Part shown: positions 30,434-51,246 of the stretch, in pieces
Layout of the letters: the number at the start of each line of letters is the position of its first letter
How positions within the stretch are numbered: the stretch's first letter is position 1
Origin: Candidatus Acidiferrales bacterium
GTDB lineage: Bacteria > Acidobacteriota > Terriglobia > Acidiferrales > UBA7541
DNA length: 64,000 nucleotides
Assembly (NCBI GenBank): GCA_031296075.1
Contig: JARLGK010000061.1
Location: 1-64,000 of the forward strand
Reading direction: 5' to 3'
Translations under genes and position numbers: made by a program
Notes under the pieces: model-generated
What the model was told of the DNA's origin: nothing
The model's input: the letters and a program-made list of their open reading frames with translations, nothing else
The model's database searches: none

Positions 30434-32797
30434 ATGAGCTCGCAGCAAAATCCGTCGTCCCGCTGGCCGGCGTGGCTGCGCTTCTCCCTTTTCAAGGTCG
30501 ATCTGGCGCTCGCGATCGCCGTCACGATCGCGGGCGTGGTCCTTTTCGCCTACTTCGGTTTCGGCGCGGACACGCGCGCGGGCATTGCGTTCCTCCAGAG
30601 CGTCGAACAGAGCTCGCTCGACATGCGCTTCGGCATGCGCGGCGCCCGCCCGCACGATGATCGCATCGTCATCGTCGGCATCGACGAGCGGACTTTGCAG
30701 GAAGTCGGCTCGTTTCCGCTCCCGCGCACGACTTACGCCACGCTAGTCGACCAGCTGAGCGCGGGCGGCGCGCGCGTCATCGCCTTCGACGCCACCTTTC
30801 CCACGTCGGAAACCAACGGCGGCAAGGCCGCGCTCGAGCAGCTTCAGCGCGACCTCGGCCCGTCCGCCCCCACGAACGTCACGAAAAAAATCCAGCAGCT
30901 CGAAGCCGCCGGCGATCCCGACGCGATATTCGCCGACTCGCTCAAGCGCGCCGGGAACGTGATCCTCGGCCACATCTTCCTCGACGCGGAAGCCGCCAAG
31001 CACTCCGATCCCAAGCTCGCGGAAGATTATTTCAATATCGCCTGGGCCAAGAATTTTCCCCAGGTCTACAAAGCGAAATCGAAAGACGGCCGCGACTTCG
31101 ACATGGGCCAGGCCTGGGTGCAGAACGGCGGTCAGGTCGCCGCCGGCGCCGAGGCCAATATCAAGGAGCTCGCCGAAGCCGCCGCCTCCTTTGGATTCAT
31201 CGACATCAAAGAGGACCCCGACGGCACGCTGCGCCACGCCCTGCTCATCAAGCGCTACCAGGATCAGGATTTCTTTCCCTCGCTCGACATGCAGATCGTT
31301 CGCGAGTTCGAAAACATCCCCGATCAGGATATCGCCGCATACATCGCGCCGGACGGACTCGAGCGCATTCAATTCGACCGCCATACGATGCGCCAATCGC
31401 GCGACGGCAGCGCCTTGATCAACTACACCGGGCCGTACGAAACGTACGCGCACTATTCCATGTGGGACGTGATGAGCGGAGCGGTGCCCCCTTCGACCTT
31501 TAAGGACAAAATCGTTCTCGTCGGCGCCACGGCCCTCGCGATCGGCGATCTCCGCAATACTCCCTATCAGAGCGGCGAAGCCTACATGGGAGTTGAGGTC
31601 CACGCCAACATCATCGACAACCTGCTGCACAGCGAGGAAAAGGGCCGCACGTTCCTCACCCGCGGATTCCGCGAGGAGATCATTGACCTCGGCTTCATCG
31701 TGCTCTTTGGCCTCGGCTTCGGCTATCTCTTCAGCACCGTCAAGCCTCTCTGGTCGACGATCACCGTGCTGCTCGCGCTCGCCGGGTTCGGCTGGTTCGT
31801 CTATTTCAGCTTCGCGCGCGAAGGCCGCTGGCTCAGCTTCGTGATTCCCGCCGGCACGCTCGCGGCAAATTACGCGGCCATCACCAGCTTTCGCATGATT
31901 TTCGAAGAAGGCGAAAAACGCAAAATCCGCAAAAGCTTCGCGCAGTATCTTTCGCCCGGCGTCATCGGGCTGATCGAAAAGGATCCCCAGAAATATATTC
32001 ATCCCGGCGGCGAGACGAAAGATCTCACCGTGATGTTCAGCGATATTCGCGGCTTCACCACTATTTCCGAAAGCCTTTCGGCCGACGAGCTGGTCCGCCT
32101 GCTCAACGAATATCTCGGCGCCATGACCGACATTCTTTTCGCCAATCTCGGCACGCTCGATAAGTACATCGGCGACGCCATCATGGCCTTCTGGGGTTCG
32201 CCCTACCCGCAGACCGACCACGCCTATCGCGCCTGCCTGTGCGCGCTGCAAATGTCGAAGGGCCTTGCGAAGCTCAACGTGAAATGGAAGCAGGAGGATC
32301 GCCCGCCAATCGCCATCGGCATCGGCCTGAACACCGGACCGGTGAACGTGGGGAACATGGGCTCGGACAAGCGCCTCGCGTGGACCGTGATGGGCGACAA
32401 CGTGAACCTTGCTTCGCGCCTGGAAGGAATCACCAAGCAATATCAAATTCAAATCGTGATCAGCGAGGGCACCTACCGCGAAGTGGCGGACAAATTCGTT
32501 TGCCGAGAACTGGACAAGATCAAAGTGAAGGGAAAGAACCAGCCTGTGAATATCTACGAGCTGCTGGATGTTGCCGCGGAAAAATCGAAGTACGAATCGC
32601 TGCTGACCGGTTTCGACCGCGCCATGGCCGCGTACCGCAGCCAAAACTGGAAGGACGCCGCCGGACAATTCGGCGAGCTCCTCGGCGTCTACCCCGACGA
32701 CGGCCCCACGCGCGTCTTCCTCCAGCGCGCCCTCGAATATCTCGACAACGCCCCCGAATCAGACTGGGACGGCGTCTACGTCGTGAAATCGAAATAG
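30434..32797 (+). CDS. CHASE2 sensor-adenylate/guanylate cyclase
   Basis: N-term TM, CHASE2 (DDRIVIVGIDERTLQEVGSFPLPRTTYATLVDQL), 3 TM, class III cyclase (VMFSDIRGFTTISE..KYIGDAIMAFWGSP..GDNVNLASRLEGITKQY). Confidence 0.93.
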   Translation: MSSQQNPSSRWPAWLRFSLFKVDLALAIAVTIAGVVLFAYFGFGADTRAGIAFLQSVEQSSLDMRFGMRGARPHDDRIVIVGIDERTLQEVGSFPLPRTTYATLVDQLSAGGARVIAFDATFPTSETNGGKAALEQLQRDLGPSAPTNVTKKIQQLEAAGDPDAIFADSLKRAGNVILGHIFLDAEAAKHSDPKLAEDYFNIAWAKNFPQVYKAKSKDGRDFDMGQAWVQNGGQVAAGAEANIKELAEAAASFGFIDIKEDPDGTLRHALLIKRYQDQDFFPSLDMQIVREFENIPDQDIAAYIAPDGLERIQFDRHTMRQSRDGSALINYTGPYETYAHYSMWDVMSGAVPPSTFKDKIVLVGATALAIGDLRNTPYQSGEAYMGVEVHANIIDNLLHSEEKGRTFLTRGFREEIIDLGFIVLFGLGFGYLFSTVKPLWSTITVLLALAGFGWFVYFSFAREGRWLSFVIPAGTLAANYAAITSFRMIFEEGEKRKIRKSFAQYLSPGVIGLIEKDPQKYIHPGGETKDLTVMFSDIRGFTTISESLSADELVRLLNEYLGAMTDILFANLGTLDKYIGDAIMAFWGSPYPQTDHAYRACLCALQMSKGLAKLNVKWKQEDRPPIAIGIGLNTGPVNVGNMGSDKRLAWTVMGDNVNLASRLEGITKQYQIQIVISEGTYREVADKFVCRELDKIKVKGKNQPVNIYELLDVAAEKSKYESLLTGFDRAMAAYRSQNWKDAAGQFGELLGVYPDDGPTRVFLQRALEYLDNAPESDWDGVYVVKSK

Positions 32798-33709: not shown

Positions 33710-35011
33710 CTAGTCGCCGAGCCCCGAAAGCGTCAGCTTCCCCTTCACGGCCTTCGCCTTGGTCCAATCGTGATACGTGTGGCACTCGAAGCAGCGCGAT
33801 TCGGCGCCGTCGGCGCCCGAGTGGTGGCACTTCTCGCACGTGGCGATGCCAGGGATCAGGATGTCGGCGGTTTCGTGGCTGGTCAGCGCCGCGTGGCACT
33901 CGGTGCATTTCACCAACTGGTGCCGGTCGTGGTTGAAATTCGCATGAGGCAGCCAGCGCGGCGTAATGTTGGATTTCGCGACCACCGGAAGCTCACTGCC
34001 TGAAGAAACACTCAGCGCGTGGCACTGCTTGCAGGTCTTGCCGTAGAGCAGCTGCTCGGATTCCGCCACGCGCTCTGTGACCCACTGCTGTGGCGTGAGC
34101 ACGCGCACCGCAACCGGCTGCGGCTTCTGCGGCAGCCCGGGAACGGGTCCGGTGACGCGGACTTCCGCCGGATGCGCGGCGATGTATTGCTGAAATCTTT
34201 CGACTAGGAATTTGTGCACCACCTCGGGCGTATCGTGCGGGACGCTTTCCGTGAATCGCTTGTCGAATTGCAGGCTGTGGCAGGCGACGCAGGTTTTCAC
34301 GTACGTCGGCGGCGCCATGTAGGCGCGCGCCAGAACCATCGCGGCCAGATCGGACTTTTGTGGGAGAAGATCGGATTTCTGCGCTGCGGGAATCGCCATC
34401 GGCGTGGCCGAGCCGAACCGCCACGCGTCCGTGGAAGTCGGAGGCCGGTGGCAATCGTCGCAATCAAGCTGCACCGGCTCCCCGTTCGGCCCTTTGAGGT
34501 TCTTCTTCATGTGCACGGCGTGATTCAGCTTGATCGTTCCGGGATCGCTGCTCCCGGAATGCAGCACCGCAAACTCGGGATGGCCCGAGCCGAAATTTTC
34601 GATATCGCGCACGAACTTCGTGGGGGCGCCGCTGGTCCGCAGGTTTGAATGGCACTGCGTGCAGGCGGCATCGGAAGTGGCCGCGAGGCGCGCGAGTCCT
34701 CGATGCTCCTCGTGGCAGGAGGCACATTTAGGAGTAAAGACTTGATTGGCGTGATGAATCGGGCCGTCATGGCAGGCGAGGCAGGCGCGGTCGCTAGTCT
34801 TCTGGCTGAAAAAACCGGCCATCTCGAAATGGCAGGCATCGCATTTCGCGGCCAGGACGGCGTGCGCGGGAGACATCGGACCGCCGCTGTACACGCGCTT
34901 GTTGCCGGTAAGTCCGTGCCAGGCGATCCAGAGAATCGCCAGCAGCGGAACGGAGACCGAGAGCCAGAAGCGCCAGCGCCGGAACGGATGCGGGCGCTTG
35001 AAATAATTCAT
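33710..35011 (-). CDS. Decaheme c-type cytochrome, N-terminally anchored
   Basis: Ten CxxCH motifs (CDACH, CLACH, CASCH, CTQCH, CDDCH, CVACH, CKQCH, CTECH, CEKCH, CFECH). Confidence 0.92.
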   Translation of the reverse strand: MNYFKRPHPFRRWRFWLSVSVPLLAILWIAWHGLTGNKRVYSGGPMSPAHAVLAAKCDACHFEMAGFFSQKTSDRACLACHDGPIHHANQVFTPKCASCHEEHRGLARLAATSDAACTQCHSNLRTSGAPTKFVRDIENFGSGHPEFAVLHSGSSDPGTIKLNHAVHMKKNLKGPNGEPVQLDCDDCHRPPTSTDAWRFGSATPMAIPAAQKSDLLPQKSDLAAMVLARAYMAPPTYVKTCVACHSLQFDKRFTESVPHDTPEVVHKFLVERFQQYIAAHPAEVRVTGPVPGLPQKPQPVAVRVLTPQQWVTERVAESEQLLYGKTCKQCHALSVSSGSELPVVAKSNITPRWLPHANFNHDRHQLVKCTECHAALTSHETADILIPGIATCEKCHHSGADGAESRCFECHTYHDWTKAKAVKGKLTLSGLGD

Positions 35012-35083
35012 ATCAATGCGCTGCGCTCGTTTCTTTGTTGCTCGCTCTCCGTCGGCCAAGGTGATTCGCCTCGCTTTACCTCA

Positions 35084-35177
35084 GGGGCTAAAGCCCCGAT
35101 TTCCAATGGCTTTAATGTCGGAGCTAAAGCTCCGCCCCCCTAAACTGCAAGACCAAGATGCCGGGCTAAAGCCCGGC
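35084..35177. repeat. Three CTAAAG-centred hairpins (GGGGCTAAAGCCCC, GTCGGAGCTAAAGCTCCGCC, GCCGGGCTAAAGCCCGGC) followed by GCTAC
   Basis: Direct reading. Confidence 0.8.
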
Positions 35178-35192
35178 GCTACATTCAAACCC

Positions 35193-36020
35193 TCAGTAAC
35201 GCAACGCCGTGATCGCGTGCACCACGCCGAGCAGCAGCAACGCGAATGATAGCGGAATGTGCAGCATCAGCCAGCCATGCAGCCAGTGATGCAGGAGCGA
35301 TTGCCGTCGCAGTTGCCGCTCCTCCTCGCAGATCTGCTCGAGCCTTTTCGTGGCTTCCTGCGCTTCGGCCGGCAGGAGCATGCGCAATCCCTCGAATGTG
35401 CTGTGCGCGCGATCGCGACTCGAAAGCAATTGGTGCCGCGCGCCACGGCTTTGCAGAAAGGGGCGCATCTCGCGCTGGTAGAAGCTGCTCAGCGGCGCGA
35501 CCCCTTCTTCGCCGGTCGCCGCTGCCTCCGTTGCCGCGATCAATTCGTCCGCGTCCGAGACGAACTGAGCGCGCACATGGTCGATCTGCTCGAAGATGGT
35601 TTCCGACGGGACTTGCGCGGTCATGATGTTGGGCACGTAATGCTGCAAGATCGCGCCGAAAATACCGCTGGCGACCACGATGATGACCAGCACCATCAAG
35701 ACGCTCGTCAGCGGGCCGCCGAAACGGAATCCCGCATGGAAGAAGATGATCGGGAGGCTCAGCAGCCCAAGCCAAAGGTGGCCGCGCATCCAGGTCTGCG
35801 CGCGTCCGAGCCGCCAGACCGGAACTTTTTTGCGCCCAGCCAACAGGCCAGCAAAGACCATGAAAGCGGAGCCAACGATTCCGAACGTGAGTCCGATGGC
35901 GCTGCCGCCGCTGGGACCCGACGGCGAATGCACCGCGTAGGGAATGTAAACGGCTGTCGCTAATCCAAAAATGATGAGCGAGGCCGCCAGCCATTTCCTA
36001 TGTGTGTGGTCTATGTGCAC
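35193..36020 (-). CDS. Integral membrane protein, possibly cytochrome b-like
   Basis: About five TM segments with His in TMs (LSLPIIFFHAGFRFG, HHWLHGWLMLHIPLSFALLLLGVVHAITA) and a long soluble loop; adjacent to cytochrome genes. Confidence 0.65.
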   Translation of the reverse strand: MHIDHTHRKWLAASLIIFGLATAVYIPYAVHSPSGPSGGSAIGLTFGIVGSAFMVFAGLLAGRKKVPVWRLGRAQTWMRGHLWLGLLSLPIIFFHAGFRFGGPLTSVLMVLVIIVVASGIFGAILQHYVPNIMTAQVPSETIFEQIDHVRAQFVSDADELIAATEAAATGEEGVAPLSSFYQREMRPFLQSRGARHQLLSSRDRAHSTFEGLRMLLPAEAQEATKRLEQICEEERQLRRQSLLHHWLHGWLMLHIPLSFALLLLGVVHAITALRY

Positions 36021-36041
36021 GGTTGATCTTGAATTTCGGCG

Positions 36042-36177
36042 CCGGGGCTAAAGCCCCGGGGAATTTGTAGTAGCGCTTTTCGTGGGGCTCAAGCCCCACG
36101 CTTCCACCTGACCGAACTTCAACGGCTTCGGCCGCGCGCATCCATCCTAAAGGCGGAACTTCAGCGGCTAAAGCCGC
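36042..36177. repeat. Hairpin repeat cluster (CCGGGGCTAAAGCCCCGG, CGTGGGGCTCAAGCCCCACG, GCGGCTAAAGCCGC)
   Basis: Direct reading. Confidence 0.8.
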
Positions 36178-36200
36178 GACCTACAAAACATCTCCTGCGC

Positions 36201-38372
36201 TCACGGCTTTTGCGCGATGCCCGGAGCCTGGCCCAGCAGACTGGCAAAGAACTTTCGCGGATCGACGCGATGCGCCGCATCGTGCGGGCAAGCATACACG
36301 CAACTCGGCTCGGCGTGGTCGGTGCACAAATCGCACGACGTGGCTTTCTGCTTCACCATCGCGACTTTTCTTCCGGGTTGGCCCGGGTCATCCGCCATCA
36401 CGTTGAATGGGTGCAGGTTGATATTGCCGTAGGGACAGTTTTCGGCGCACAGCCCGCAGCCAATGCACCAATCCTCGATAATCACCTCAAGCGAGTTGCG
36501 CCGGCGGATCGCGCCGACCGGGCAGCCGACCATGCACAACGGGTCGAGGCACTGGCGGCACGAGGTGGCCACCAGGTAGTGATCGAACCGCAGCCCTTCG
36601 CGAACGAGCCGGGTGATTCCGTCGTGCGAGTCGGCGCAGGCGCGCACGCACGCGTCGCATCGCGTGCAGCTATTCAGATCCAGAAGCAGCAGGCTCTGCG
36701 CTTCCATCAAACCCTGCGCGAGGAAATTATCGAGAGGAACGCTCTGCACCACGGAGAGCCGCTCGCGATTCATCTGCGCGCGGTCGTGTTCCACCGCCTC
36801 CAGCTTCCGCCGCACGACGGGAAATTCGCTCATCATGCGGTTGAAATCGCCGGCGCCGATGCGAACGAGCTCCACATGGTCGAGCGCCGTGCAGGTGGCC
36901 GTGCGTATATCGCCCGCGAGCAGGCCGGTTTCTCCGAAATAATCACCGCGCGAAAGGTAGGCGAGAATCATGTCGCCGCCCGGATGCGCCTGCGACACTT
37001 TCACGAAACCGATGCGGACGAGATAAAAGCTGTCGGCGGGATCGCCCTGCCGGCAGATGATCTGGCCGGGCGAATAGCGCACCAGCTCGACCGATTCGCG
37101 CAGGCTGCCGATGAATTCGTCCGTCAACTCCGCGAATACGGGAACCGAGCGCAGGTGGCTGTCGAGCGCGCGCTGGCGATACGATTTGTCGAGCTGAGCG
37201 CGGAAATTCTTGTTGCGCTGCATGATGTCGAGCACGTTGCGCAGCATTTCGAGCATGGTGCAATCGGTTTCGGCGCGGACGGTGGCCGAGCGCGGGTAGA
37301 GGCTCATGCAGGTCATCTCGCCGAACAGATCGCCGGGGCCGAGTTCCGCGACGGGATTGTCGTAACTGAGGTCCATGGGCGCGTCGATGGGAATCCAGCG
37401 CTGGTCGGCCTCTTCTTCGCGGCGATCGCGGCTGCGCTGGGCGAGCGAACTGGAAAGCTTGCCGATAAATTTCTTGATGCCGCTCTGCGTTTTCACGTGC
37501 GCCATCGGAGTCGAGATGGAAACCTGTGCTCTACCATCGAGAATGTAGAACGCGGTCGAGCCGTATTCACCCTCGCGGCAAATAACTTCACCCTTGCGGA
37601 AGTGGCGCTTCACCACGGCGCCGCGGTTCAAACTTAGAAATGTTCCGGAGACGCCCTTGAAAACCGGGAGATGCTGCAGCTCATCCGGCGAGACGGTTTC
37701 ATAAGCAGGGCCCGCGCCCAGCGCGGTCCGGGTCACGCCCTTGTTCGTGAGCGCTCCGGTCGGGCAGGAAACCATGCACTCGCCGCAGGAGACGCAGGAG
37801 GATTCGCCCATGGGTTCGTTGTCGTCAAAAGCGATTCCCGCGTGCGTGCCTTTCCCCATGCGGCCGAGCACGAAGTTCTCGCGAATCTCGCTGCACCCGC
37901 GGATGCAGCGGTCGCACAGGATGCACGCGTCGAAATCCACGGCGATGCTCATCGAAGAGTCGTCTTTGGCGCGGCCGCTGGTACTCCGCGCGAATCGCGG
38001 CTGCTGCACATTTTCTTGCCGTGCCAGGGTTTCGAGCTCGCAATCGCCGGAATGCTGCTGGCGCGCGCAGGGCGAAGGATGGTCGGACATCAACATCTCT
38101 ATGAGCGTGCGCCGCGCGCGCTGCACTTTCTCGGATGCCGTATTCACGACCATGCCGGCCTCGGCCGGGCGCACGCACGACGCGGTGAATACGCGCGCGC
38201 CAACGTCCACGACGCACAACCGGCAGACGCCCACGGGCGTTTCGTTCTGCTGGTGGCACAAGGTGGGAATGGCAATATCGTTCAATCGCGCGGCGTCAAA
38301 AACGGATGTTCCCGCCGGCACGGAGACTTTCCTGCCGTCTATGGTGAGTTCGATGAGGCCGGCCGCGCTCAT
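36201..38372 (-). CDS. Iron-sulfur protein: NuoG/HoxU-like 2Fe-2S/4Fe-4S N-term, two cNMP-binding domains, HycB-like poly-4Fe-4S C-term
   Basis: CHQQNETPVGVCRLCVVDVGARVFTASC; CILCDRCIRGC / CVSCGECMVSC; FGEMTCMSLYPRSATVRA and FGETGLLAGDIRTATCTA; CTRCDACVRAC, CRQCLDPLCMVGC, CIGCGLCAENC, CDLCTDHAEPSC. Confidence 0.88.
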   Translation of the reverse strand: MSAAGLIELTIDGRKVSVPAGTSVFDAARLNDIAIPTLCHQQNETPVGVCRLCVVDVGARVFTASCVRPAEAGMVVNTASEKVQRARRTLIEMLMSDHPSPCARQQHSGDCELETLARQENVQQPRFARSTSGRAKDDSSMSIAVDFDACILCDRCIRGCSEIRENFVLGRMGKGTHAGIAFDDNEPMGESSCVSCGECMVSCPTGALTNKGVTRTALGAGPAYETVSPDELQHLPVFKGVSGTFLSLNRGAVVKRHFRKGEVICREGEYGSTAFYILDGRAQVSISTPMAHVKTQSGIKKFIGKLSSSLAQRSRDRREEEADQRWIPIDAPMDLSYDNPVAELGPGDLFGEMTCMSLYPRSATVRAETDCTMLEMLRNVLDIMQRNKNFRAQLDKSYRQRALDSHLRSVPVFAELTDEFIGSLRESVELVRYSPGQIICRQGDPADSFYLVRIGFVKVSQAHPGGDMILAYLSRGDYFGETGLLAGDIRTATCTALDHVELVRIGAGDFNRMMSEFPVVRRKLEAVEHDRAQMNRERLSVVQSVPLDNFLAQGLMEAQSLLLLDLNSCTRCDACVRACADSHDGITRLVREGLRFDHYLVATSCRQCLDPLCMVGCPVGAIRRRNSLEVIIEDWCIGCGLCAENCPYGNINLHPFNVMADDPGQPGRKVAMVKQKATSCDLCTDHAEPSCVYACPHDAAHRVDPRKFFASLLGQAPGIAQKP

Positions 38373-40075
38373 GCGTGCCTCGAAGCCGCGTGAGCTTCCA
38401 CCGACGGCGCGCCGGAGAAACAGATTCCCGACGGGCATTCGCGGCGCGATACGTGCGCCTCGACTTCGTCGCGGAAATGTTTTAACACGGAGCTGATGGG
38501 AGACGGGACGACCTGGCCGAGGCCGCAGATGGACGTGAGGCGCAGCGCGTCGGAAAGCTCGTCAATCAGCGCGAGGTCGGAGGACGAGCCGTGGCCTTGC
38601 GTCCAGCCGGTGAGGAGATCGACCATTTTCTGTGAACCGACGCGGCACGGAACGCATTTCCCGCACGATTCATTGCGGAAGAATTTCGTGGAGTTGAGCG
38701 CCATGTCCAGCATGCAGGTGCCTTCGCCGCATACCACGACCGCGCCCGAGCCAAGCATCGAGCCCGCGTCGGCGAGCGCTTTGAAATCGAGTTTTACATC
38801 GGCGAGCGACGCCGGGAGGTAGCCGGAAGAGGGTCCCGAGGGCGCGAAGCCTTTCAGTTTTCTCCCGCCGGGAATGCCGCCGGCGTGCTTGAAAATCAAA
38901 TCGGAAAACGTGGTGCCCATGGGAACTTCGTAGACGCCGGGTTTGGCGATATCGCCGCTGATGCCGACGAATTTGAGTCCGGCGCAGCCGCCCACGCCTT
39001 GCGCCTTGTACCAATCCACGCCGCGCACCAGGATGGGCGGCACGTTGGCGAATGTCTCGACGTTGTTGATGACCGTGGGCTTGTTCCACAGGCCCTGCGT
39101 CACGGGAAACGGCGGCTTGTTGCGCGGCTCGGCGCGCTTGCCTTCGATGGCTTCGAGCAGAGCGCTTTCTTCGCCGCAGATGTAGCCGCCAGGGCTGACG
39201 AAAAGCTCAAGGTCGAATTCCAGGTCGCTGCCGAGGATGGACGGCCCGATGAGGCCCGCTTTCTCGCAGCGATGGATTTCCTCTTCGAGAATTTTTTCCT
39301 GTTCATCGTACTCGTGGCGAATGTAAAGAATGCCCTTGCGCGCGCCCGTCAGCAGTCCCGCCAGGATCATCCCTTCGATAACCAGATGGGGAAGGTTCGT
39401 GAGAATGAAACGATCCTTGATCGTGCCGGGCTCGCTTTCGTCCGCATTGCAGACGATATATTTTTCGGGCCCTGGCTGCTGGCGGACCAATTGCCACTTG
39501 GACTCCGTGGGAAATCCCGCGCCGCCCAGGCCTCGAAGGCCCGAAGCTTTCAGCAACGCGAAGGCGGAATCCCAATCGCGCGATTGCACCAGCCGCCGAA
39601 CGACGGCGTAGCGCTCGGCTGGCGCGGCGTATGGATCGGAGGCGCAGGCGATTCCGCGGCGCGAGGGGACTGGTTCCGGCAGCGTCCCTTGCGAAACCAC
39701 GTCGCGGATCATTTCTTCAATTTGAGGTTCGGTCAACCGCGTATAGATACGGTCGTTGACAGCCAAGGCCGGGGCTTGATCGCATCGGCCGAGGCACGAC
39801 GCGCCGCGCACAATCACATCGGAGCCGCTCAGATTCTGAAGCCGCTCTTCGAGGCGCGCGCGAAGACCGTCGGCGCCGCGAAGGTGGCAGGACATGTCCT
39901 GGCAGACGCAGACGTCCGCCTTGGGAGGCGGCGTGAGACGAAAATGCGGATAAAAGCTGGCGACTCCGTGCAGGCGATACAGGGGAACGTCAATCTTCTT
40001 CGACAAATTCTTCAATTCTTCAGCAGGCAGGTAACCGAACCGGTGTTGGATCTCCCTCAGCGAATCGAAGATCAA
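38369..40075 (-). CDS. NuoE-NuoF fusion (HoxF/diaphorase-like NADH-binding subunit)
   Basis: NuoE-like VCVCQDMSCHLRGA..GASCLGRCDQAPA fused to NuoF-like GLRGLGGAGFPTESKW..NADESEPGTIKDR..GAYICGEES-type..ESCGKCVPCRVG. Confidence 0.92.
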   Translation of the reverse strand: MIFDSLREIQHRFGYLPAEELKNLSKKIDVPLYRLHGVASFYPHFRLTPPPKADVCVCQDMSCHLRGADGLRARLEERLQNLSGSDVIVRGASCLGRCDQAPALAVNDRIYTRLTEPQIEEMIRDVVSQGTLPEPVPSRRGIACASDPYAAPAERYAVVRRLVQSRDWDSAFALLKASGLRGLGGAGFPTESKWQLVRQQPGPEKYIVCNADESEPGTIKDRFILTNLPHLVIEGMILAGLLTGARKGILYIRHEYDEQEKILEEEIHRCEKAGLIGPSILGSDLEFDLELFVSPGGYICGEESALLEAIEGKRAEPRNKPPFPVTQGLWNKPTVINNVETFANVPPILVRGVDWYKAQGVGGCAGLKFVGISGDIAKPGVYEVPMGTTFSDLIFKHAGGIPGGRKLKGFAPSGPSSGYLPASLADVKLDFKALADAGSMLGSGAVVVCGEGTCMLDMALNSTKFFRNESCGKCVPCRVGSQKMVDLLTGWTQGHGSSSDLALIDELSDALRLTSICGLGQVVPSPISSVLKHFRDEVEAHVSRRECPSGICFSGAPSVEAHAASRHA

Positions 40076-40453: not shown

Positions 40454-41821
40454 ATGATCACCACGCTCGAAACCAAGTCCTCTCACCTGTTTCTGCTGCC
40501 GGCTGCGGCGCTTCTGCTTTGCACTTTGCTTCCATCTACGAGTTCCGCGCAGACGCGCACTAGTGCGTACGATGGCGCGGGAAAATACACGGGGCCGGGG
40601 TCGTGCGCCTCGACGAGCTGCCACGGAAGCGTGACACCGCGCACGGAAAACGACGTCCTCCAAAATGAATACAGCACCTGGATCGTCAAGGATAAGCACG
40701 CGCAATCCTACAAGGCCCTGACCGGAAACGTCGGCGAGCGAATGGCGGGCATCCTTGGGCTGGGCAAGGCCGAGACGGCCCCGCGGTGCCTGGCCTGCCA
40801 CGCTCTAAATCCGCCAGCGGAGGAACGATCGCGCACGTTTGACGTGAGCGAGGGCGTGAGCTGCGAGAGCTGCCACGGACCCGCGTCCGGGTGGCTCGGC
40901 CCGCACACGGAACGCGATTGGACTCACCAGAAGTCCGTCGCGCTGGGAATGGTTGACACGCGCGATCTGGTGAAGCGCACGGAAAAATGCCTCAGTTGCC
41001 ATCTCGGCAGCGAACAGAAATTTGTGGACCACGAGATGATCGCGGGAGGACATCCCGATCTATTTTTCGAGCTGGATTCTTTTTCCGCCGTGATGCCCCG
41101 GCACTGGAAAGAGCCCGGCGAGCCGGGTGCGGCCGGGCAGAGCGACCCCTGGTACGACGTTCGCGAGATGACCACGGGGCAGGCGGTGCAGTTGCGCGAA
41201 TCGATGCTGCGGCTGGCATCGCGATCGCGCGGGAAAATCTGGCCGGAATACTCCGAGATGCAGTGCTACGCGTGCCACCACAGCCTGACTCCACCGGAAC
41301 AGAGCTGGCGGCAGGCGCGGGGCTACGAGGGACGGCGGCCCGGCGACCCTCCGTGGAACGCGTCGCGATACGCGGTGTTTCGGGACGTGGTTCATCAGCT
41401 GGATGGACAGGACGCGGGACAACTGGACGACCAGATTTCACAGCTCACGAAACTGATGAGCCAGCTGAATCCCGACCGCGACGCGGTTGCAAGCGCGGCT
41501 ACAAATTCCGCGCATCTCGCTGACGCGCTGGTGGGGAAGATTCAAACGGCGGCGTACGATCCGGCGTCCACGCTGCGGCTGCTGCAGAAGATTTCCGGCG
41601 ACGCGGACGACATTTCCGGCCAGGGCGAGCAATCCGCGGCGCAGGCCGCCATGGCGGTCCAGTCGCTTTTCGTCGCATACAACCGCGACGCGAAACCGCA
41701 AAACGCCGCGGAACTGCGCGCCGCAATCACGGCGCTGTTTCAGCAGCTCGAGACTCCATCGGCCTACGATCCGGCGCGATTCGCGCGTCAGATGCAGCAA
41801 GTGAACGCCCTCCTGAGGTGA
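40454..41821 (+). CDS. Multiheme cytochrome c (c554-like; four CxxCH plus one CX4CH)
   Basis: Signal peptide; CASTSCH, CLACH, CESCH, CLSCH, CYACH. Confidence 0.88.
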   Translation: MITTLETKSSHLFLLPAAALLLCTLLPSTSSAQTRTSAYDGAGKYTGPGSCASTSCHGSVTPRTENDVLQNEYSTWIVKDKHAQSYKALTGNVGERMAGILGLGKAETAPRCLACHALNPPAEERSRTFDVSEGVSCESCHGPASGWLGPHTERDWTHQKSVALGMVDTRDLVKRTEKCLSCHLGSEQKFVDHEMIAGGHPDLFFELDSFSAVMPRHWKEPGEPGAAGQSDPWYDVREMTTGQAVQLRESMLRLASRSRGKIWPEYSEMQCYACHHSLTPPEQSWRQARGYEGRRPGDPPWNASRYAVFRDVVHQLDGQDAGQLDDQISQLTKLMSQLNPDRDAVASAATNSAHLADALVGKIQTAAYDPASTLRLLQKISGDADDISGQGEQSAAQAAMAVQSLFVAYNRDAKPQNAAELRAAITALFQQLETPSAYDPARFARQMQQVNALLR

Positions 41822-41824
41822 ATC

Positions 41825-43231
41825 GTGCGGGAATTTGACCTGGTGGTGATTGGCTCCGGCCCGGCCGGCGAAAAGGGCGCGGCGCAGGCCGCCTACTTCG
41901 GCAAGAAGGTCGCCGTGGTCGAATCCGGCTCCGACCTCGGCGGAGCATGCATCAACACCGGCACGCTTCCCAGCAAGATTCTGCGCGAATCCGCGCTGTA
42001 CTTTTCGGGCCTGAAACAGCGCGGGCTTTACGGAATCGACTATTCGCTCCGCGAAGGCCTGACGATCAAGAGCTTTACGCACCGCAAGGACGTCCTCGTC
42101 GGGATGGAGCAGGAAAAGATCCGGGCGAATCTGGCCGCGCATGGCATTGAGCTGATACAGGGAGTCGGATCCTTTGAAGACGCGCACACCGTGGCCGTGA
42201 AGACTCCGAAAAATGAAATGACTCAACTACGCGGCGAGGCGATCCTGATTGCGACGGGTTCACGCCCCCACAGGCCGGCGGAGATTCCGTTCGACGACGA
42301 GGCCATATTCGATTCCGATTCGATACTGAAGATGGGACGCATCCCGCGGAGCCTGGTCGTGGTCGGCGGGGGCGTGATCGGATGCGAGTACGCCTCGATA
42401 TTTACGGCGCTGGGAGTGGAGGTGGCGCTGGTGGACGGGCGAGATCGCGTGCTTCCTTTTCTGGACGCTGAATTGTCCGAGGCGTTGCGCGAGCGGCTGG
42501 CCGGACTGGGAGTGACATTCTTTCTGGGCGAGCGCATGGGGCCGATCGAGCGCACCAAGCAGGGCGTGCGCATCCAGATGCCATCGGGCAAGACGATCGA
42601 AATGGAATCGGCGCTATTCGCAGCGGGACGGCGCGGCGCAGTGGATGAATTGCATCTCGAAAAGGCCGGTCTGGCGGTGAATAAGCGCGGCTACGTGGAA
42701 GTGAACGGGTCCTACCAGACGGCGGTGCCTTCCGTCTACGCGGCGGGAGACGTGATTGGATTCCCGGCGCTGGCTTCGACCTCGATGGAGCAGGGGCGCG
42801 TGGCCGTGTGCCACGCCTTCGGCTTCCAGTATAAACAGCGGCTCGGCTCGATGCTTCCGATGGGCGTGTACACGATTCCCGAGATTTCGGCCGTCGGTGA
42901 ATCGGAGGAAAGCTGCAAGGAAAAGGGCATCGAGTACGAGGTTGGGCGGGCGCGCTATGCCAACAACGCGCGAGGCTTGATCGCGGGAGATGCCGCCGGC
43001 CTGCTGAAGCTGCTGTTCCGGCGCTCCGATCGTCATTTGCTCGGCGTGCACATCATCGGCGAGAACGCCACCGAGCTCATTCATCTGGGTATGATGGTGC
43101 TCGAATCAGGCGGGACGATCGATCTTTTCATCGAATTCGTTTTCAACTATCCGACGCTCTCCGAAATGTACAAATACGCCGCGTACGATGGATTGGGAAA
43201 TCTTGCGGGGCACAAGCTGCGGCAGGGATAA
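41825..43231 (+). CDS. sthA: Si-specific (soluble) NAD(P)+ transhydrogenase
   Basis: FDLVVIGSGPAGEKGAAQAAYFGKKVAVVE..GGACINTGTLPSKILRES (second redox Cys replaced by Thr) and pyridine nucleotide-disulfide fold. Confidence 0.85.
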   Translation: MREFDLVVIGSGPAGEKGAAQAAYFGKKVAVVESGSDLGGACINTGTLPSKILRESALYFSGLKQRGLYGIDYSLREGLTIKSFTHRKDVLVGMEQEKIRANLAAHGIELIQGVGSFEDAHTVAVKTPKNEMTQLRGEAILIATGSRPHRPAEIPFDDEAIFDSDSILKMGRIPRSLVVVGGGVIGCEYASIFTALGVEVALVDGRDRVLPFLDAELSEALRERLAGLGVTFFLGERMGPIERTKQGVRIQMPSGKTIEMESALFAAGRRGAVDELHLEKAGLAVNKRGYVEVNGSYQTAVPSVYAAGDVIGFPALASTSMEQGRVAVCHAFGFQYKQRLGSMLPMGVYTIPEISAVGESEESCKEKGIEYEVGRARYANNARGLIAGDAAGLLKLLFRRSDRHLLGVHIIGENATELIHLGMMVLESGGTIDLFIEFVFNYPTLSEMYKYAAYDGLGNLAGHKLRQG

Positions 43232-43472: not shown

Positions 43473-45053
43473 CTACTGCGTAGGATTACGGGGGAACTTC
43501 AGATAGGGCAGACGGACTCCATTGACCATGATCTGGTCCGCGCGAATGGCGTCCGGAGGCTCGAAGCCGACGGCGCCGCCTGCGGTGACGAAATCGTCCT
43601 GATCGACGCCGTCGCCGCTGACGCCCAGGCCGCCGACAAGCACTCCGTTGATGTACAGCGGCTCTGAGCCTGGGAAGAATACGATTCCGCTTTGATTGAC
43701 CGCCGGCCATGACGGTCCCGGCACCTGAAATCCCTGCGTGCAGGGCTTGTTCACGTCCTGCAGGAACAAATTGAAAAAAGGGCCTGCGGCCGAGCCGTCA
43801 ATTCCGGGCGGAAAGAATGGCTGCCCGCCGAAGCCGATGGTGCGATTGGTGACCGCGGTACCCATGGGTACGCCGTTCAGGTCCATCGGTTGGCGGGTGG
43901 TGCCGCTGAAATAGATCACGTTGCGAGCCTTCGTGGCGGCGACATCGATGCTGAACACGGTGCCGTCGGTCATGCGGTAAAGCCCGATGATGGTGCCGTC
44001 GAGGTCGCTCACCGCAATCGACATTTTCGCCCGCGATCCGAGAGGGAGGCGAATGAGCGCGCGCGTCTGGTTCGCGGTGGCGCCAGCGTTGGAGATGATC
44101 CCGCTGACCTGCGCGGCGGTGAGGCCCCCGACGGGCCCCGCCGTGGCGGGCACGAGGTACCCTTCGGGAGCGTCGCCGGGGCTCGCGACGGGACCCTCGG
44201 TGAATAAAGCGGCGTTGAACGTCCCCGGTGAAACTCCGGCAGGAGCCGTCGTTTGATCCACGAACGGCAGCGCGACTCCGTCAATCACGACTTCGCCGGG
44301 CGGAGGCAGTGAAGCAGGGTCGAGGAATATTCCGTCCGAGTTCACGCGCACGGCCGTGAACGCAACGTATTCCGCGATGTCCAGGGAAACGCCGGTGATG
44401 CCGATTCCGCCGACGACCTGGCCGTTCTTGAAAATCGGAACGCCGCCCGGGTTAACCGCGGTGGGATCGCTGTCCGAGGCGTCAGCCTTGCCGGTGGCGA
44501 TCCCCAGGCCGGGGCTGGCCCCGCCGATTGTCGTGGCCGGCGGAACGGTCGTGGCGAGGCTGCTGGAAAGCGTGCATCCGCGATTCGTATTTTCGATGCC
44601 GTAGAGCGCGGCGTTGGGCGCGTTCATGACGCCCGGCGGGAAATGGATGCCGCTGATATAGCGCACGGTCCGAGACGAGAGGGGAGCCTGATCGTTGCTG
44701 AAGAATGCGCCGGTGCGGGCGAGCGAGACAGCAAGTTCATCGGCGGGCACCATGTTGCCAAAATTGCCCGTCACGAGGGCCGGAGCGGAAGAACCTTTAT
44801 ACACTGCCAGAATCCGCCCTAGCCGGTCGACCACGGCGATGGCCATCGTATCGGACTGAGCGGCCGTAGCCGCAGCCTGCACCAGCATCATGACGTCGCT
44901 CTGCGTGAGCGCCTGAGGCCCGGGTGGAGGCACAGTCGGCGAAACCGGAGCCGCTCCACCTCCGCATGCAGATAGGCCGACGCAAAGCGCGGCGACGATT
45001 CCAAAGGTTCGGAGGAAAGAGCCTGCAGAATTGCGATGGATGGACCAATGCAT
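43473..45053 (-). CDS. Secreted lipoprotein with GlcG/HbpS (DUF336)-like domains
   Basis: Lipobox LSACGGG; AATAAQSDTMAIAVVDRLGRILAVYKGSS..ARTGAFFSNDQAPLSSRTVRYISG. Confidence 0.75.
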   Translation of the reverse strand: MHWSIHRNSAGSFLRTFGIVAALCVGLSACGGGAAPVSPTVPPPGPQALTQSDVMMLVQAAATAAQSDTMAIAVVDRLGRILAVYKGSSAPALVTGNFGNMVPADELAVSLARTGAFFSNDQAPLSSRTVRYISGIHFPPGVMNAPNAALYGIENTNRGCTLSSSLATTVPPATTIGGASPGLGIATGKADASDSDPTAVNPGGVPIFKNGQVVGGIGITGVSLDIAEYVAFTAVRVNSDGIFLDPASLPPPGEVVIDGVALPFVDQTTAPAGVSPGTFNAALFTEGPVASPGDAPEGYLVPATAGPVGGLTAAQVSGIISNAGATANQTRALIRLPLGSRAKMSIAVSDLDGTIIGLYRMTDGTVFSIDVAATKARNVIYFSGTTRQPMDLNGVPMGTAVTNRTIGFGGQPFFPPGIDGSAAGPFFNLFLQDVNKPCTQGFQVPGPSWPAVNQSGIVFFPGSEPLYINGVLVGGLGVSGDGVDQDDFVTAGGAVGFEPPDAIRADQIMVNGVRLPYLKFPRNPTQ

Positions 45054-45247
45054 GCGATCGCAACTATTCGTACCACAGCTGGCCACTGTTCTCAATCTAC
45101 TCTCGCTCACGCGGCGTCGCGGAGACCGGAGGTCACGCGCTCTGTGTCGTCTTTGGCACGCGAGACGGTGAACGAATTCATCAAAAAGACTTGCTCATCC
45201 GGAAGCAACCGGGTTAGATAGACCGAGCACGGCAAAATGATACGAAA

Positions 45248-47431
45248 TTGCTGACGCTTTCCAGGACACCGAGGATGCTCGCTGCATCCAACGCCCTCTC
45301 CAGACTCGTTCCACTGATCTTGCTTGCATCGTTGCCGCTATCCGCCGCCGTGAGATTCACCGCGGCCATCGCTTCCCAACAGCAGCGCCTTCCCGGGAAA
45401 GCGCCACAAAAGACGGGCGCGCTTGAAGGTGTGGTGCGAGATTCGAACGGCCGGGCCGTTGGTGGCGCGATCGTGGCCCTGCGGAACGTTGCGACGGGCG
45501 AGGTTCGCAAGGCGACAAGCAGCGCGGAGGGCGTTTTCCGCCTGATTGACTTGCCTCCGGGAAAATATGAATGGAGCGTCGTGTGCGAAGGCTACGAGAC
45601 ATTCACGGGAGAGAGCCTGTCGCTGGCGGCCGGCGAAGTCCTGATTCGTGAAATCAAGCTCGTTGCCGGGCCCATCGCCGCTCCAGCTCCGACAGGACTT
45701 CCGCAGCTTCCGCCGATGAATGCGGCGCCGACAGCGACGGAGTCGTCTGCTCCGGGATATTCCGGGGCCAAGCAGAGTCCCGATCTGCAGCCCGCCGGCG
45801 CGCAGCCCGCGCCGGAAACGCTCCCGCCGGATGGCGAGATTTTTCAGCCCGAACCGAATCGCTGGCGGGTCACGATGCCCGACTGGAATCGCTACGGCAC
45901 AGGCGGCGAGCATCCTTATGTAAAGGGACACCGCTGGGACCCCTTTGACCGGAACAAATGGAAAGGCGACGTCCCGATCATCGGCCAGCAAACCTTTTTC
46001 AACTTCACGGGCATCAGCGATACGCTTTTCGACGGCCGGCGCCTGCCGGTTCCGAGCGACGTCAGCACGGCTCGCCCCGGGAGCAGCGATTTCTTCGGGA
46101 AGGGCGAGCAGGTTTTCCTCGATCAACTTTTTCTTTTCTCCTTCGACCTGTTTCACGGCGACGCGGCCTTCCGTCCCGTGGATTGGCGGATTCGAGTGAC
46201 TCCGGCGGTCAGCCTGAACTATCTCGACGTGCGCGAGCTCGGCATCGTCAAAGTTGACGTGCGCGGGGGAACCACGCGACTGGATTCCCACATCGGATTT
46301 CAGGAGGCGTTCGCGGAAGTAAAACTTCACGACCTGAGCCCGAATTTCGATTTCATCTCCGTGCGCGCGGGAATTCAGGATCTCAACGCCGATTTCAGAG
46401 GATTTCTTTTCGTTGACGAGCAGCCCGGCGTGCGATTCTTCGGCAACCTGGAATCGAATCGCTGGCAATACAACTTGGCCTACTTCAACTTGCTCGAGAA
46501 GAATACGAACAGCGGCCTGAACTCGTTCGCCCGGCGAAAGCAGCAGGTGATCATCGCCAACGTGTACAGGCAGGATTTCCTGTTCCAGGGCTATACGGCG
46601 CAATTCAGCGTGGACTACAACGACGACGCGGCCAGCGTTCATTACGATGACAACGGGTTTCTGGTGCGCCCATCGCCCATTGGCGCGGTGGTCTCCAATA
46701 ACATGGTTCAGCCGCATAGCATTCACGCCGCGTACCTCGGATGGACGGGCGACGGGCACATCGGGCGCGTGAACCTCACGCACGCCTTTTACCAGGCTCT
46801 CGGAACCGACAGCCTGAACCCGATCGCCGGGCGGGCGGTCACAATCAACGCGCAGATGGCCGCGCTCGAGCTCTCCGTGGACAAGGATTGGATCCGCTTC
46901 AAGGGATCGCTTTTCTACGCTTCGGGATCGGCAAATCCCCGGAGCGGCAAGGCGCGCGGTTTTGACGCCATTGAAGACTTCCCGGAATTCGCAGGCGGAA
47001 TTTTCAGCCTGTGGAATCGCGAAGGCATAAGGCTGACCGGGTCCGGCACGAACCTGACTTCGCTCGATAGCCTCTTGCCCAGCCTTCGTTCGAACAAGGA
47101 CGAAGGGCAAGCCAACTTCGTCAATCCCGGAATATTCCTCGCGAACCTGGGGACGGATTTCGACCTGACGCCAAAGTTGCGCGGCTTCGTCAACGTAAAC
47201 TACCTGCGATTCATGCGCACCGAGCCGCTGGAATTGCTGCTGTTCCAGGCGCCCATTCACCATACGATCGGGGTGGACTCCAGCATCGGAGTGCGCTACC
47301 GGCCGCCGCTGACGGAAAACATCTCGATCACCGCCGGAGCCGCCACACTGGTGCCCGGCGAGGGCTTGCGCGATATCTATACGGGCAAGATGATGTTCTC
47401 GTTGTTTACGAACGTGCGTTTTCAATTCTAG
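45248..47431 (+). CDS. Outer-membrane beta-barrel protein with N-terminal CarboxypepD_reg-like domain
   Basis: [20 protein letters not shown]..; amphipathic strands; C-terminal FTNVRFQF ending in Phe. Confidence 0.7.
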
Positions 47432-47433
47432 CG

Positions 47434-50400
47434 TTGCGCGAGGAAGACCGAAAAGTGCTGAAGCGAGGTCCATTCACGGCGCGTTCAACGCGTCCAGGCA
47501 TGACGCGGCCCTACGTCGCTGTGCTCGCGCTCGTCATTGCTGGATTATTTGCGCTCGAGCACGGATTGCCCGCACAGCCGCGGCCGCAGTCGCAGTCGCG
47601 GATGCCTATGGGATCTCAAGCTACGCAACCCAGCCTGATCACGCAGACTCAGGCCGACGCTGACGCCAAGAGCGCGGGTTGCGTCACCTGTCATACCAGC
47701 GAAGATGAGCCGACGATGCATCCCACGCGGACGGTGCGCCTGGGCTGCACGGATTGCCACGGCGGCGATGCCAGCGCCGGCATCTCAGCCGGCACGCCCA
47801 AGGATTCCGCGGCCTACGACCAGGTGAAGACGAAGGCGCATCCGCAGCCTCGCGATCCCGTCTTCGCGCGCGGATTGGCCCACGCGGAGCGCGCTTACAC
47901 GGCATGGTTGCGCGAAAGCTACGACTACGTTCGATTCGCCAATCCCGGAGATCTTCGGGTCGCCCCGCAAACCTGCGGCACGGCTGGGTGCCACGCAGTG
48001 GAAGTTCGCAACGTCAGCACCAGCATGATGACGCACGGCGGCATGCTCTGGGGCGCGGCGCTTTACAACAACGGATCGATTCCGGTGAAGAATGCGCGCT
48101 TCGGCGAAAGCTACTCCGCAGATGGCCTGCCGCAGACGATGCACACCTTCCCTCCGCCGACGCCCGAGGAAACACGGATGAAAGGCGTGGTGCCGGAGCT
48201 GACTCCGCTGGAGCGTTGGGAGATTTCGCAGCCTGGAAATGTGCTGCGCGTCTTCGAGCGCGGCGGCGCGAAAAAAGGCGAAGTAGGAAACCCCAAGTCC
48301 GAGGAAAATCCCGGCCGTCCCGATGACCAGCTGGGAGAGCGCGGCTTCGGCACTCTGCTGCGCACCGATCCCGTCTTTCTCGGCCTGCAGAAGACTCGCT
48401 TGCTCGACCCGATGCTCTCGTTCCCAGGCACGAACGATCAATCGGGCGACTATCGCGGCAGCGGTTGCACGGCGTGCCACGTGATTTACGCCAACGACCG
48501 CTCGCCCGAGCATTCCGGCCCGTACGCACCCTTTGGTCATCTTGGTGAGAGCGCTTCGTCCGATCCGACGATCGCAAAGAACGAGCCGGGCCATCCGATT
48601 CGGCACACGTTCACGCGCTCGATTCCCTCCAGCCAATGCATGGTCTGCCACATTCACCCGGGCACGAACATGGAAACGACTTATTTCGGTTACACCTGGT
48701 GGGACAACGAAGCGGACGGCGAGTCGATGTATCCCGCACAGCAACGGCATCCCACAGCGGACGAACGCCATGATATTGCGCAGCGGAATCCCGAAGGCGC
48801 CGCCCCGCGAGGCTTGTGGTCGGATCCGAAATTCCTGGAACAATTGGGCAGCGCACAATTCAACACGCAACTGAAGCAAAGCCAGTTCGCCGATTTTCAC
48901 AGTCACGGATGGGTCTTCCGCGCCGTTTACAAGCGGGATCGAAAAGGCAACCTGCTCGACGGCGATAACAAGACCGTCTCCGCCGATGATCCGAAGAAAT
49001 TCGACAAAGCCGTACACTTGAAAGACATCCACCTGGAAAAGGGAATGCAGTGCGTGGATTGCCACTTCCAGCAGGACGTGCACGGCAACGGAAAGCTCTA
49101 CGCCGAGCCCCGCGCCGCCATCGAACTCGACTGCACCGATTGCCACGGGACGATTGAAAAACGCGCCACATTGATCACGTCCGGCCCGGCGGCGCCGAAC
49201 GGCGGCACGCATCTCGACGCGCTGCGCACGCCGTGGAATAGCCGACGATTCGAATGGCGCGACGGCAAACTTTACCAGCGCTCGATGGTAGAGCCCGACC
49301 GAGAATGGGAAGTGGTGCAGACGCTGGACACGATCACGCCCGGCAATCCTCATTACAGCGAGAAATCGCGGTGGGCGAAAACCGTGCGGCGGGATGGCAC
49401 GACCTGGGGCGCGCTTCCGGCGGACGAGTCTCAGCTGGCGCACGCGAACAGCCGCATGACCTGCTACGCCTGCCACACTTCGTGGACGCCGAATTGTTTC
49501 GGCTGCCATCTTTCGATGACGGCGAACCAGCGCATGCCCATGCTGCACAATGAAGGCCTGACCACGCGCAACTTCACGTCCTATAACTTCCAGGTGCTAC
49601 GCGACGACGGATTCATGCTGGGAATCGACGGCACGGTGACGGGGCATCGCGTGGCGCCCGCGCGCTCTTCCTGCGCGATCACGGTCAGCTCGCAAAATCA
49701 GAATCGTGAATGGCTCTACTACGGGCAACAGACGGTTTCGGCCGAGGGATTCGCGGGCACGGCGTTCAGCACATTCGTGCCGCACACGGTGCGGTCGAAG
49801 GAAACCAAGGCCTGCGACGATTGTCACGTCTCCGAGCGCAACGACAACAACGCGTGGATGGCGCAGGTCCTGCTGCAGGGCACCAACCTTTTGAATTTCA
49901 TGGGGCGTTATATATATGTTGCGGACGGCACCAAGGGCTTCGATGCCGTGGCCGTGGCGGAACACGATGAGCCCCAGGCGATCTTCGGCAGCTACCTGCA
50001 ACGGCTGGCCTATCCGGACGACTACCGCCAGCACGTCGCGCGCGGCCGCGAGCTCAAGGAAGCCTATCATCACGAAGGAAATGTGCTCGATGTGCAGCTT
50101 CGCGGCGAATATCTCTACGCCGCGCTCGGCAAGGGCGGCTTCCGCGCGTACGACGTCGCGAACATCGACAACAAGGGATTTTCCGAGCGGCAGGTCACCG
50201 CGCCCGTCTCTCCTCTGGGTCAGCGCCTCTACGTGCACACGAAGTATGCGACGGCCATCGCCAGTCCTTCGACGCTGGCCCTTGATCCCGCGCGCACGCG
50301 GAATCCGGAAAACGAAGAGCAGCCCATCCACGCGATGTACGCGTTTCTCTATGTCGCCGATAAATACGAGGGCCTGGTGATCGTGGGAGATTCAAACCCT

Positions 50401-51246
50401 CATAGTAAGAGTCCCGGCGTCAGCACGCTGCTCGACGGCGATCCGCGAAACAATTTCCTGAAGCGGGCGCTGGCATTCAACCCGAACGGGATATTGAATG
50501 GCGCGCGCCGCATCGCCATCGCCGGAAACTACGCCTACATGCTCTGCGATCACGGCCTCGTCGTCGTGGATTTGGATAAGCCGCTCCAGCCGCGGGTGGT
50601 TGCGGAAATCGGCGCGCCCGAATTGAACGATCCTCAGGGAATTTCGATCCAGTTCCGCTACGCATTCGTGGTGGACCGCGACGGCCTCAAGGTTTTGGAC
50701 GTCACTGCGCTCGATCATCCTCGCGTCGTGCCGAATGCCGTCGTGCGATTGGAAGACGCCCGCAATGTGTATATCGCGCGCACGTACGCGTACGTCGCCG
50801 GCGGCAAGCAGGGTCTCGCGATCGTGGACGTCGAGCAGTCCGAGCAGCCGCGGCTCGACCAGATTTTTTCGGACGGCGGCAAGATCAACGACCTGCGCGA
50901 CGTGAAAGTCGGAATGGTGGACGCCAGCGCGTTCGCCTTCCTCGCCGACGGACGCAACGGGCTGCGCGTCCTGCAGTTGCTTTCGCCCGAGGATTCGCCC
51001 AATGCCTACGGCTTCAGCCCGCGGCCAACTCCCAAGCTCATTGCCAGCTACCGCACCGGTGCGCCGGCTCTGGCGATTTCCAAGGGAGTGGACCGCGACC
51101 GCGCCGTGGATGAGAGCGGAAATCAGCTCGCGGTGTTTGGACGCCGCGGCGCAAGGCCGCTCAATCGCGAAGAAGCAGGCCGCTTGTATCTCCGGGACGG
51201 CAAAGCCTTCCGCATTACAAACGATCCGCCGGGCCCCACGCGCTAA
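47434..51246 (+). CDS. Giant multiheme cytochrome fused to LVIVD-like repeat propeller
   Basis: Nine CxxCH (CVTCH, CTDCH, CTACH, CMVCH, CVDCH, CTDCH, CYACH, CFGCH, CDDCH) plus CGTAGCH; C-term repeats [23 protein letters not shown] / [22 protein letters not shown] / [23 protein letters not shown]; signal-like start at 47500. Confidence 0.9.

Follow-up and report, generated by a model that had tools for sequence, protein, structure and literature searches.

A soil acidobacterium carries a group of genes that, in our interpretation, probably exports electrons across the cell envelope, fed by NADH and controlled by cyclic nucleotides (cNMP). The genes, their cofactor motifs, their synteny and co-occurrence and the enrichment of cyclases near them were directly observed; complex formation, gating, direction and acceptor are inferred, without any biochemistry. 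The source is Candidatus Acidiferrales bacterium GCA_031296075.1 (3.19 Mb, 241 contigs, ~89% complete), and the window is the whole stretch of 64,000 nucleotides analysed, positions 1 to 64,000 of contig JARLGK010000061.1. A first-pass annotation had described four minus-strand genes at 33710-40075, all of which were recovered from the reading frames and a Pfam scan:

38369..40075, minus strand: NuoE-NuoF fusion (NuoEF), the NADH/FMN input (PF01257, PF01512, PF10531, PF10589; solved relatives; motif check)
36201..38372, minus strand: hub protein, with a NuoG/HydA-like N-terminus, two cNMP domains and a HydN-like C-terminus (domain matches, motif check)
35193..36020, minus strand: membrane protein (MemB) with five transmembrane (TM) helices, a putative di-haem cytochrome b (invariant His, AF2 model, charge topology)
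33710..35014, minus strand: membrane-anchored decahaem cytochrome c (MHC10; ten CxxCH, N-terminal hydrophobic segment, Cytochrome_C7 / Paired_CXXCH)

The conserved unit goes beyond what that annotation saw, both in size and in distribution, and its core is made of the hub, MemB and MHC10. At least three input variants, a linked outer-membrane porin/cytochrome module and an adjoining CHASE2 cyclase had not been recognized. Translational coupling had been proposed for at least the first two genes; the overlap of the NuoEF stop with the hub ATG (ATGA, 38372-38369) supports it for that pair, but there is no overlap further down. The two later gaps are ~180 bp each and both contain a palindromic repeat, and the operon is nearly free of gaps in a relative (L034). 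The repeat, centred on GGCTWAAGCC, is a REP-like element. It occurs six times without mismatch in the window, where 0.17 copies are expected, and four of these occurrences lie in the operon gaps (35084-35183 and 36044-36185).

NuoEF (568 aa) has 2Fe-2S thioredoxin-like, Nuo51 FMN, SLBB and NADH_4Fe-4S domains, all above the Pfam cut-off. Its likeness to an NADH-oxidizing diaphorase was borne out: GLGGAGFPT and NADESEPGT are intact, as are the N1a-type (2Fe-2S) and N3-type (4Fe-4S) cysteines, and with these FMN/NADH motifs and cysteines it qualifies as a NuoEF-type NADH dehydrogenase module. The nearest solved relatives are HydB, HoxF and NuoF chains. In agreement with the earlier claim that no hydrogenase or nuo core is present, the Pfam scan of the window genes beside the operon found no hydrogenase catalytic subunit and no nuo core; the unlabelled neighbours of relatives were only partly scanned. 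Complex I, which would have refuted the proposal as a natural partner, can be ruled out, given that a complete complex I on another contig has its own NuoE, F and G, its NuoG retaining the N5-type ligands (HPLDCPVCDKGGEC). The operon itself is not a complex I, in which NuoEFG are encoded with membrane and quinone subunits. There are three NuoF genes in the genome, at the complex I locus, at a contig end and in this operon; the second lies next to an FDH-type NuoE and was set aside as a separate locus. At the complex I locus L139:16694-18949, NuoE and NuoF apparently share one reading frame too.

The hub (723 aa) shows Fer2_4, two cNMP and multiple Fer4 domains in Pfam. Its NuoG/HydA-like N-terminus has one 2Fe-2S and two 4Fe-4S clusters, and its HydN-like C-terminal region has four 4Fe-4S motifs. 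The N5-type ligand pattern (tested as H-x3-C-x2-C-x5-C) is degenerate in the window hub (HPSPCARQQHSGDC); the middle Cys is absent from all Terriglobia members and the motif is lost entirely in those of Planctomycetes/Verrucomicrobia, so that the hub does not meet the definition of a complex I or HydA NuoG module. NuoEFG, HoxFU and HydAB share with the operon the NuoE-NuoF chemistry and the NuoG-type 2Fe-2S and 4Fe-4S start of the relay, whereas the operon has no quinone arm or hydrogenase, its N5-type ligands are degenerate or lost, and its hub adds the two cNMP domains and the HydN-like exit. Bifurcating HydB and HydA chains are among the top solved relatives for NuoEF and for the NuoG-like part. 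A HydABC-type NADH enzyme that bifurcates electrons therefore has to be considered, but NuoEF has no C-terminal ferredoxin domain and the N5-type site of the hub is degenerate, which makes this explanation hardly credible.

MemB (275 aa) has no match in Pfam. An alignment of 43 homologues has just seven invariant columns, four of which are the histidines H81, H95, H254 and H268, with a spacing of 14 within both pairs (two HX13H). The AF2 model (pLDDT 92.7) has five TM helices, with the His pairs on the third and fifth (model helices 74-96 and 218-274). Both run from inside to outside, from which we infer that H81/H254 would hold an inner and H95/H268 an outer haem. Charge counts (positive-inside) place the N-terminus and the large helical TM4-TM5 loop in the cytoplasm, and this loop could be the docking site of the hub. 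With two conserved His pairs on two helices, MemB fits the definition of a di-haem transmembrane cytochrome b, and we consider it a putative member on its sequence, no bound haem having been shown. The PDB fold search gave no significant match, which leaves the histidines as the only evidence for the two haems. The first-pass annotation would have been refuted by homologues without a haem or quinone signature; the four histidines are present in 43/43, and the five-TM model is confident. Some members gave weak matches to Ni_hydr_CYTB (14/43), DUF4405 (10/43) or Ferric_reduct (4/43), the window MemB to none. A search for MemB homologues alone over-counts, since its weak matches include b-type proteins from unrelated contexts (L052 and others). 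In NADPH oxidases, ferric reductases and MsrQ, NAD(P)H electrons cross the membrane via b haems that are ligated by paired histidines of TM3 and TM5. MemB has the TM3/TM5 His pairs in common with them and would share the cytoplasmic NAD(P)H source; unlike them, it would pass its output to a decahaem cytochrome, and it has no significant sequence or fold match to them.

Scanning species genomes with the hub C-terminus revealed at least 228 loci, of which 80 were examined. These belong to Acidobacteriota, Planctomycetota, Verrucomicrobiota, Lentisphaerota, alpha-, beta- and gamma-Proteobacteria, Myxococcota, Nitrospinota, Elusimicrobiota and Riflebacteria. Conserved synteny without hydrogenase or nuo genes, named earlier as potential support, was thus found in several phyla. 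A Chloroflexota entry (L081, labelled Thermoflexus hugenholtzii) is near-identical to a locus from a beta-proteobacterial MAG (L084), and is probably a binning contamination. In Acidobacteriota the MemB homologues adjoin hub and decahaem genes. Among the 71 examined loci with at least 3 kb of downstream sequence, 59 have a membrane ORF with two HX13H and a multihaem ORF directly downstream of the hub on the same strand; at L065, L069 and L072 the hub, membrane and multihaem genes are present in a different order. In public records the Sphingobium genes bear generic product names ("cyclic nucleotide-binding domain-containing protein", "hypothetical protein", "cytochrome c3 family protein").

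The input is exchangeable. In class 1, as in the window, a NuoEF gene accompanies a hub with a NuoG-like N-terminus; in class 2 an FAD pyridine-nucleotide oxidoreductase (YpdA/thioredoxin-reductase-like) is fused to the hub; in class 3 the hub has no such N-terminus, and a pentahaem protein and a probable barrel are often nearby. Sphingobium herbicidovorans (NZ_CP020539.1) has a three-gene FAD version. A quick tree without bootstrap places the class 1 hubs, along with one truncated contig, in a single supported group (SH-aLRT 97); the hubs with FAD also cluster together. The recurrent neighbours of class 3 hubs (L040:2147-5625, for example) are a pentahaem cytochrome and a protein of ~500 aa ("548") that has a signal peptide and in most cases ends in Phe. 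The latter is a probable barrel, and the two are possibly another undescribed porin-cytochrome pair.

The count of exactly ten CxxCH in MHC10 (residues 58, 78, 97, 118, 185, 242, 328, 370, 393 and 408) confirmed the decahaem assignment, and the protein has one N-terminal hydrophobic anchor. Beyond one marginal match, a PDB sequence search with it returned nothing, and no recognized decahaem gene was found within 10 kb at the class 1 loci L066-L068 and L073. Some class 2 decahaem multihaem cytochromes carry FHA domains (e.g. L041:10160-12484), an unusual pairing that suggests phospho-threonine control. Five further genes of the window are relevant to the system:

40454..41821, plus strand: C554-like tetrahaem cytochrome c, divergent to the operon (PF13435)
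41825..43231, plus strand: SthA, Si-specific NAD(P)+ transhydrogenase (NCBIfam PRK05249, 580.8 bits against a cut-off of 465)
43473..45110, minus strand: HbpS-like haem-binding protein, a probable lipoprotein assigned to the outer-membrane module (PF03928)
45248..47431, plus strand: outer-membrane beta-barrel, the porin partner (many-stranded barrel in AF2; Foldseek; C-terminal Phe)
47434..51246, plus strand: large 9-haem cytochrome c with LVIVD beta-propeller repeats (PF08309; nine CxxCH)

A C554-like cytochrome lies at most 10 kb away at 9/14 class 1, 6/25 class 2 and 28/39 class 3 loci, and SthA adjoins the system in L054 too. The barrel matches AlgE (4.5e-17) and OprD-type porins in Foldseek; its gene is separated by 2 bp from that of the LVIVD cytochrome and has the HbpS-like gene on its other flank. 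Lying side by side, barrel and multihaem cytochrome fulfil the definition of a porin-cytochrome conduit, with electron transfer inferred. A CarboxypepD_reg-domain outer-membrane barrel with a plug (PF25183, 51387-54836) directly follows the LVIVD cytochrome.

Barrel and LVIVD cytochrome lie 5-11 kb from the core, in a separate block that is partly on the opposite strand to the operon; at class 2 loci the barrel, LVIVD and HbpS-like genes come directly after the decahaem gene. The core might instead be an NADH-fed reductase that serves a periplasmic enzyme through the decahaem and tetrahaem proteins, the outer-membrane block being a neighbour with a separate job. Class 3 cores are indeed paired with different multihaem proteins, and the barrel is missing from 28 of the 60 genomes with a MemB-like match. 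However, the barrel occurs in 32 of the 297 genomes of the phylum, and every one of these 32 has a MemB match; moreover, class 3 has a probable barrel of its own in the "548" protein. The barrel is present in 24 of the 28 hub genomes (Fisher P ~1e-24 to 1e-26, uncorrected for relatedness), and in 16 of those 24 it shares a contig with the hub, 6-19 kb apart. In the eight barrel genomes under the hub threshold the MemB matches fall within frames of 850-1070 aa, suggesting fused hub-MemB genes. We therefore regard a purely periplasmic role as unlikely, if not to be dismissed, and prefer export to the outer membrane.

The hub also has the sequence hallmark of a putative cNMP-controlled protein, as the phosphate-binding cassette Glu and Arg are kept in both cNMP domains (FGEMTCMSLYPRSATVRA and FGETGLLAGDIRTATCTA). 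The two domains have a likely ligand because a cyclase gene adjoins the operon:

30434..32797, plus strand: CHASE2 adenylate/guanylate cyclase (PF05226 and PF00211)

A gap of 0.9 kb separates the end of this gene from the operon. The gene is the sole CHASE2 gene of the genome and one of its two class III cyclases, and is the likely source of the ligand. Cyclases were found near 12 of the 80 related hub loci, against ~1.1 expected from 51 cyclases in 63 Mb (P ~3e-9). Both this value and that for co-occurrence are optimistic, since the counts include related, non-independent lineages. In Sphingobium a CpdA-type phosphodiesterase gene is directly 3' of the decahaem gene. Cyclases are rarer at class 3 loci (1/40). 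Class 3 hubs, had they lost cNMP binding, would have offered a contrast to cyclase adjacency, but the simple correlation did not hold because degeneration in this class is confined to the second cassette. Direct gating of the relay by cNMP binding is an inference, with no binding or activity data. The same two domains and cyclase, together with the FHA domains in class 2, could point to a signalling device in which the hub reports the redox state to cNMP signalling and electron flow is secondary, but a complete chain of cofactors running from FMN to the ten haems, with an outer-membrane module besides, exceeds what a sensor needs, and we find this very doubtful.

The wiring proposed by the first-pass annotation, from NADH module to FeS hub, membrane protein and multihaem cytochrome, is supported as an interpretation. 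In the electron export that we favour, NuoEF would take the hydride from NADH to FMN, and the electrons would pass through its 2Fe-2S and 4Fe-4S clusters to the hub, leaving by the four C-terminal 4Fe-4S clusters for the inner haem of MemB. The outer haem may then deliver them to the membrane-anchored decahaem cytochrome, from which they would reach the barrel and LVIVD cytochrome, with the tetrahaem C554-like protein as a probable intermediary. The cNMP domains, situated between input and output clusters, are predicted to sense the product of the CHASE2 cyclase and to switch the relay. The cofactor chain is apparently complete from NADH to the ten periplasmic haems, and probably continues to the surface.

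The direction had been left undecided, and we infer that flow from NADH to the periplasm is more likely than the reverse. NuoEF-type modules are reversible in NAD-reducing hydrogenases and formate dehydrogenases, and the same parts could be used in either direction, so that electrons from an outside donor might be carried inward to reduce NAD+. This seems improbable: inward flow would run against the membrane potential, which drives electrons out, with no pumping subunit present, and unpumped NAD+ reduction from any mild donor is uphill. The adjoining SthA, moreover, fits NAD(P)H disposal. Outward export would make the system an energy-dissipating valve, for which a switch is plausible. Its presence in aerobes such as Sphingobium is at odds with classical anaerobic metal respiration, and argues against this as the only role.

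The system is filed among the trans-envelope electron conduits, as a variant for which no description was found. CymA, CbcL/MtoC and ImcH have been described as quinol oxidases or quinone reductases (PMC6295460). They too pass electrons from an inner-membrane protein to multihaem cytochromes, and CbcL likewise contains a di-haem b domain; in contrast to these quinol-fed proteins, a cytoplasmic NAD(P)H module is joined here via a soluble FeS hub. The Geobacter cluster extHIJKLMNOPQS likewise encodes a porin-like protein together with several multihaem cytochromes and a b cytochrome of the inner membrane (PMC5877670), but it has a Rieske protein in place of the cNMP/FeS hub and no NADH module. 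The LVIVD cytochrome matches the NCBIfam Ext models only weakly (ExtM 77.6/800, ExtO 37.2/200, ExtN 36.4/200 bits), far below the equivalog cut-offs, and does not qualify as part of that system by this criterion. Mtr and OmbB-OmaB-OmcB share the adjacency of barrel and multihaem cytochrome genes, whereas the barrel described here best matches AlgE and OprD-type porins and its cytochrome has an LVIVD propeller. The literature search, outside which subscription papers and preprints fell, found no description of the system and nothing pairing multiheme with LVIVD, cyclic nucleotide-binding or HbpS; for NuoEF with multiheme cytochromes none emerged from what were mostly titles and abstracts.

The characterized electron-export conduits of bacteria are described as fed from the quinone pool. 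We tentatively suggest, with rather less confidence than for export itself, a widespread family of ligand-gated conduits with a conserved core, swappable NAD(P)H inputs and outer-membrane outputs, and a dedicated cyclase that sets the current by ligand binding and not by transcription. The system is testable, since it occurs in many phyla and culturable aerobes such as Sphingobium are among its carriers. If true, a core that runs on NAD(P)H, with exchangeable inputs and a cNMP sensor, would be a different link between metabolism and the outside, one that can be switched quickly, and a role for many unassigned multihaem cytochromes would follow.
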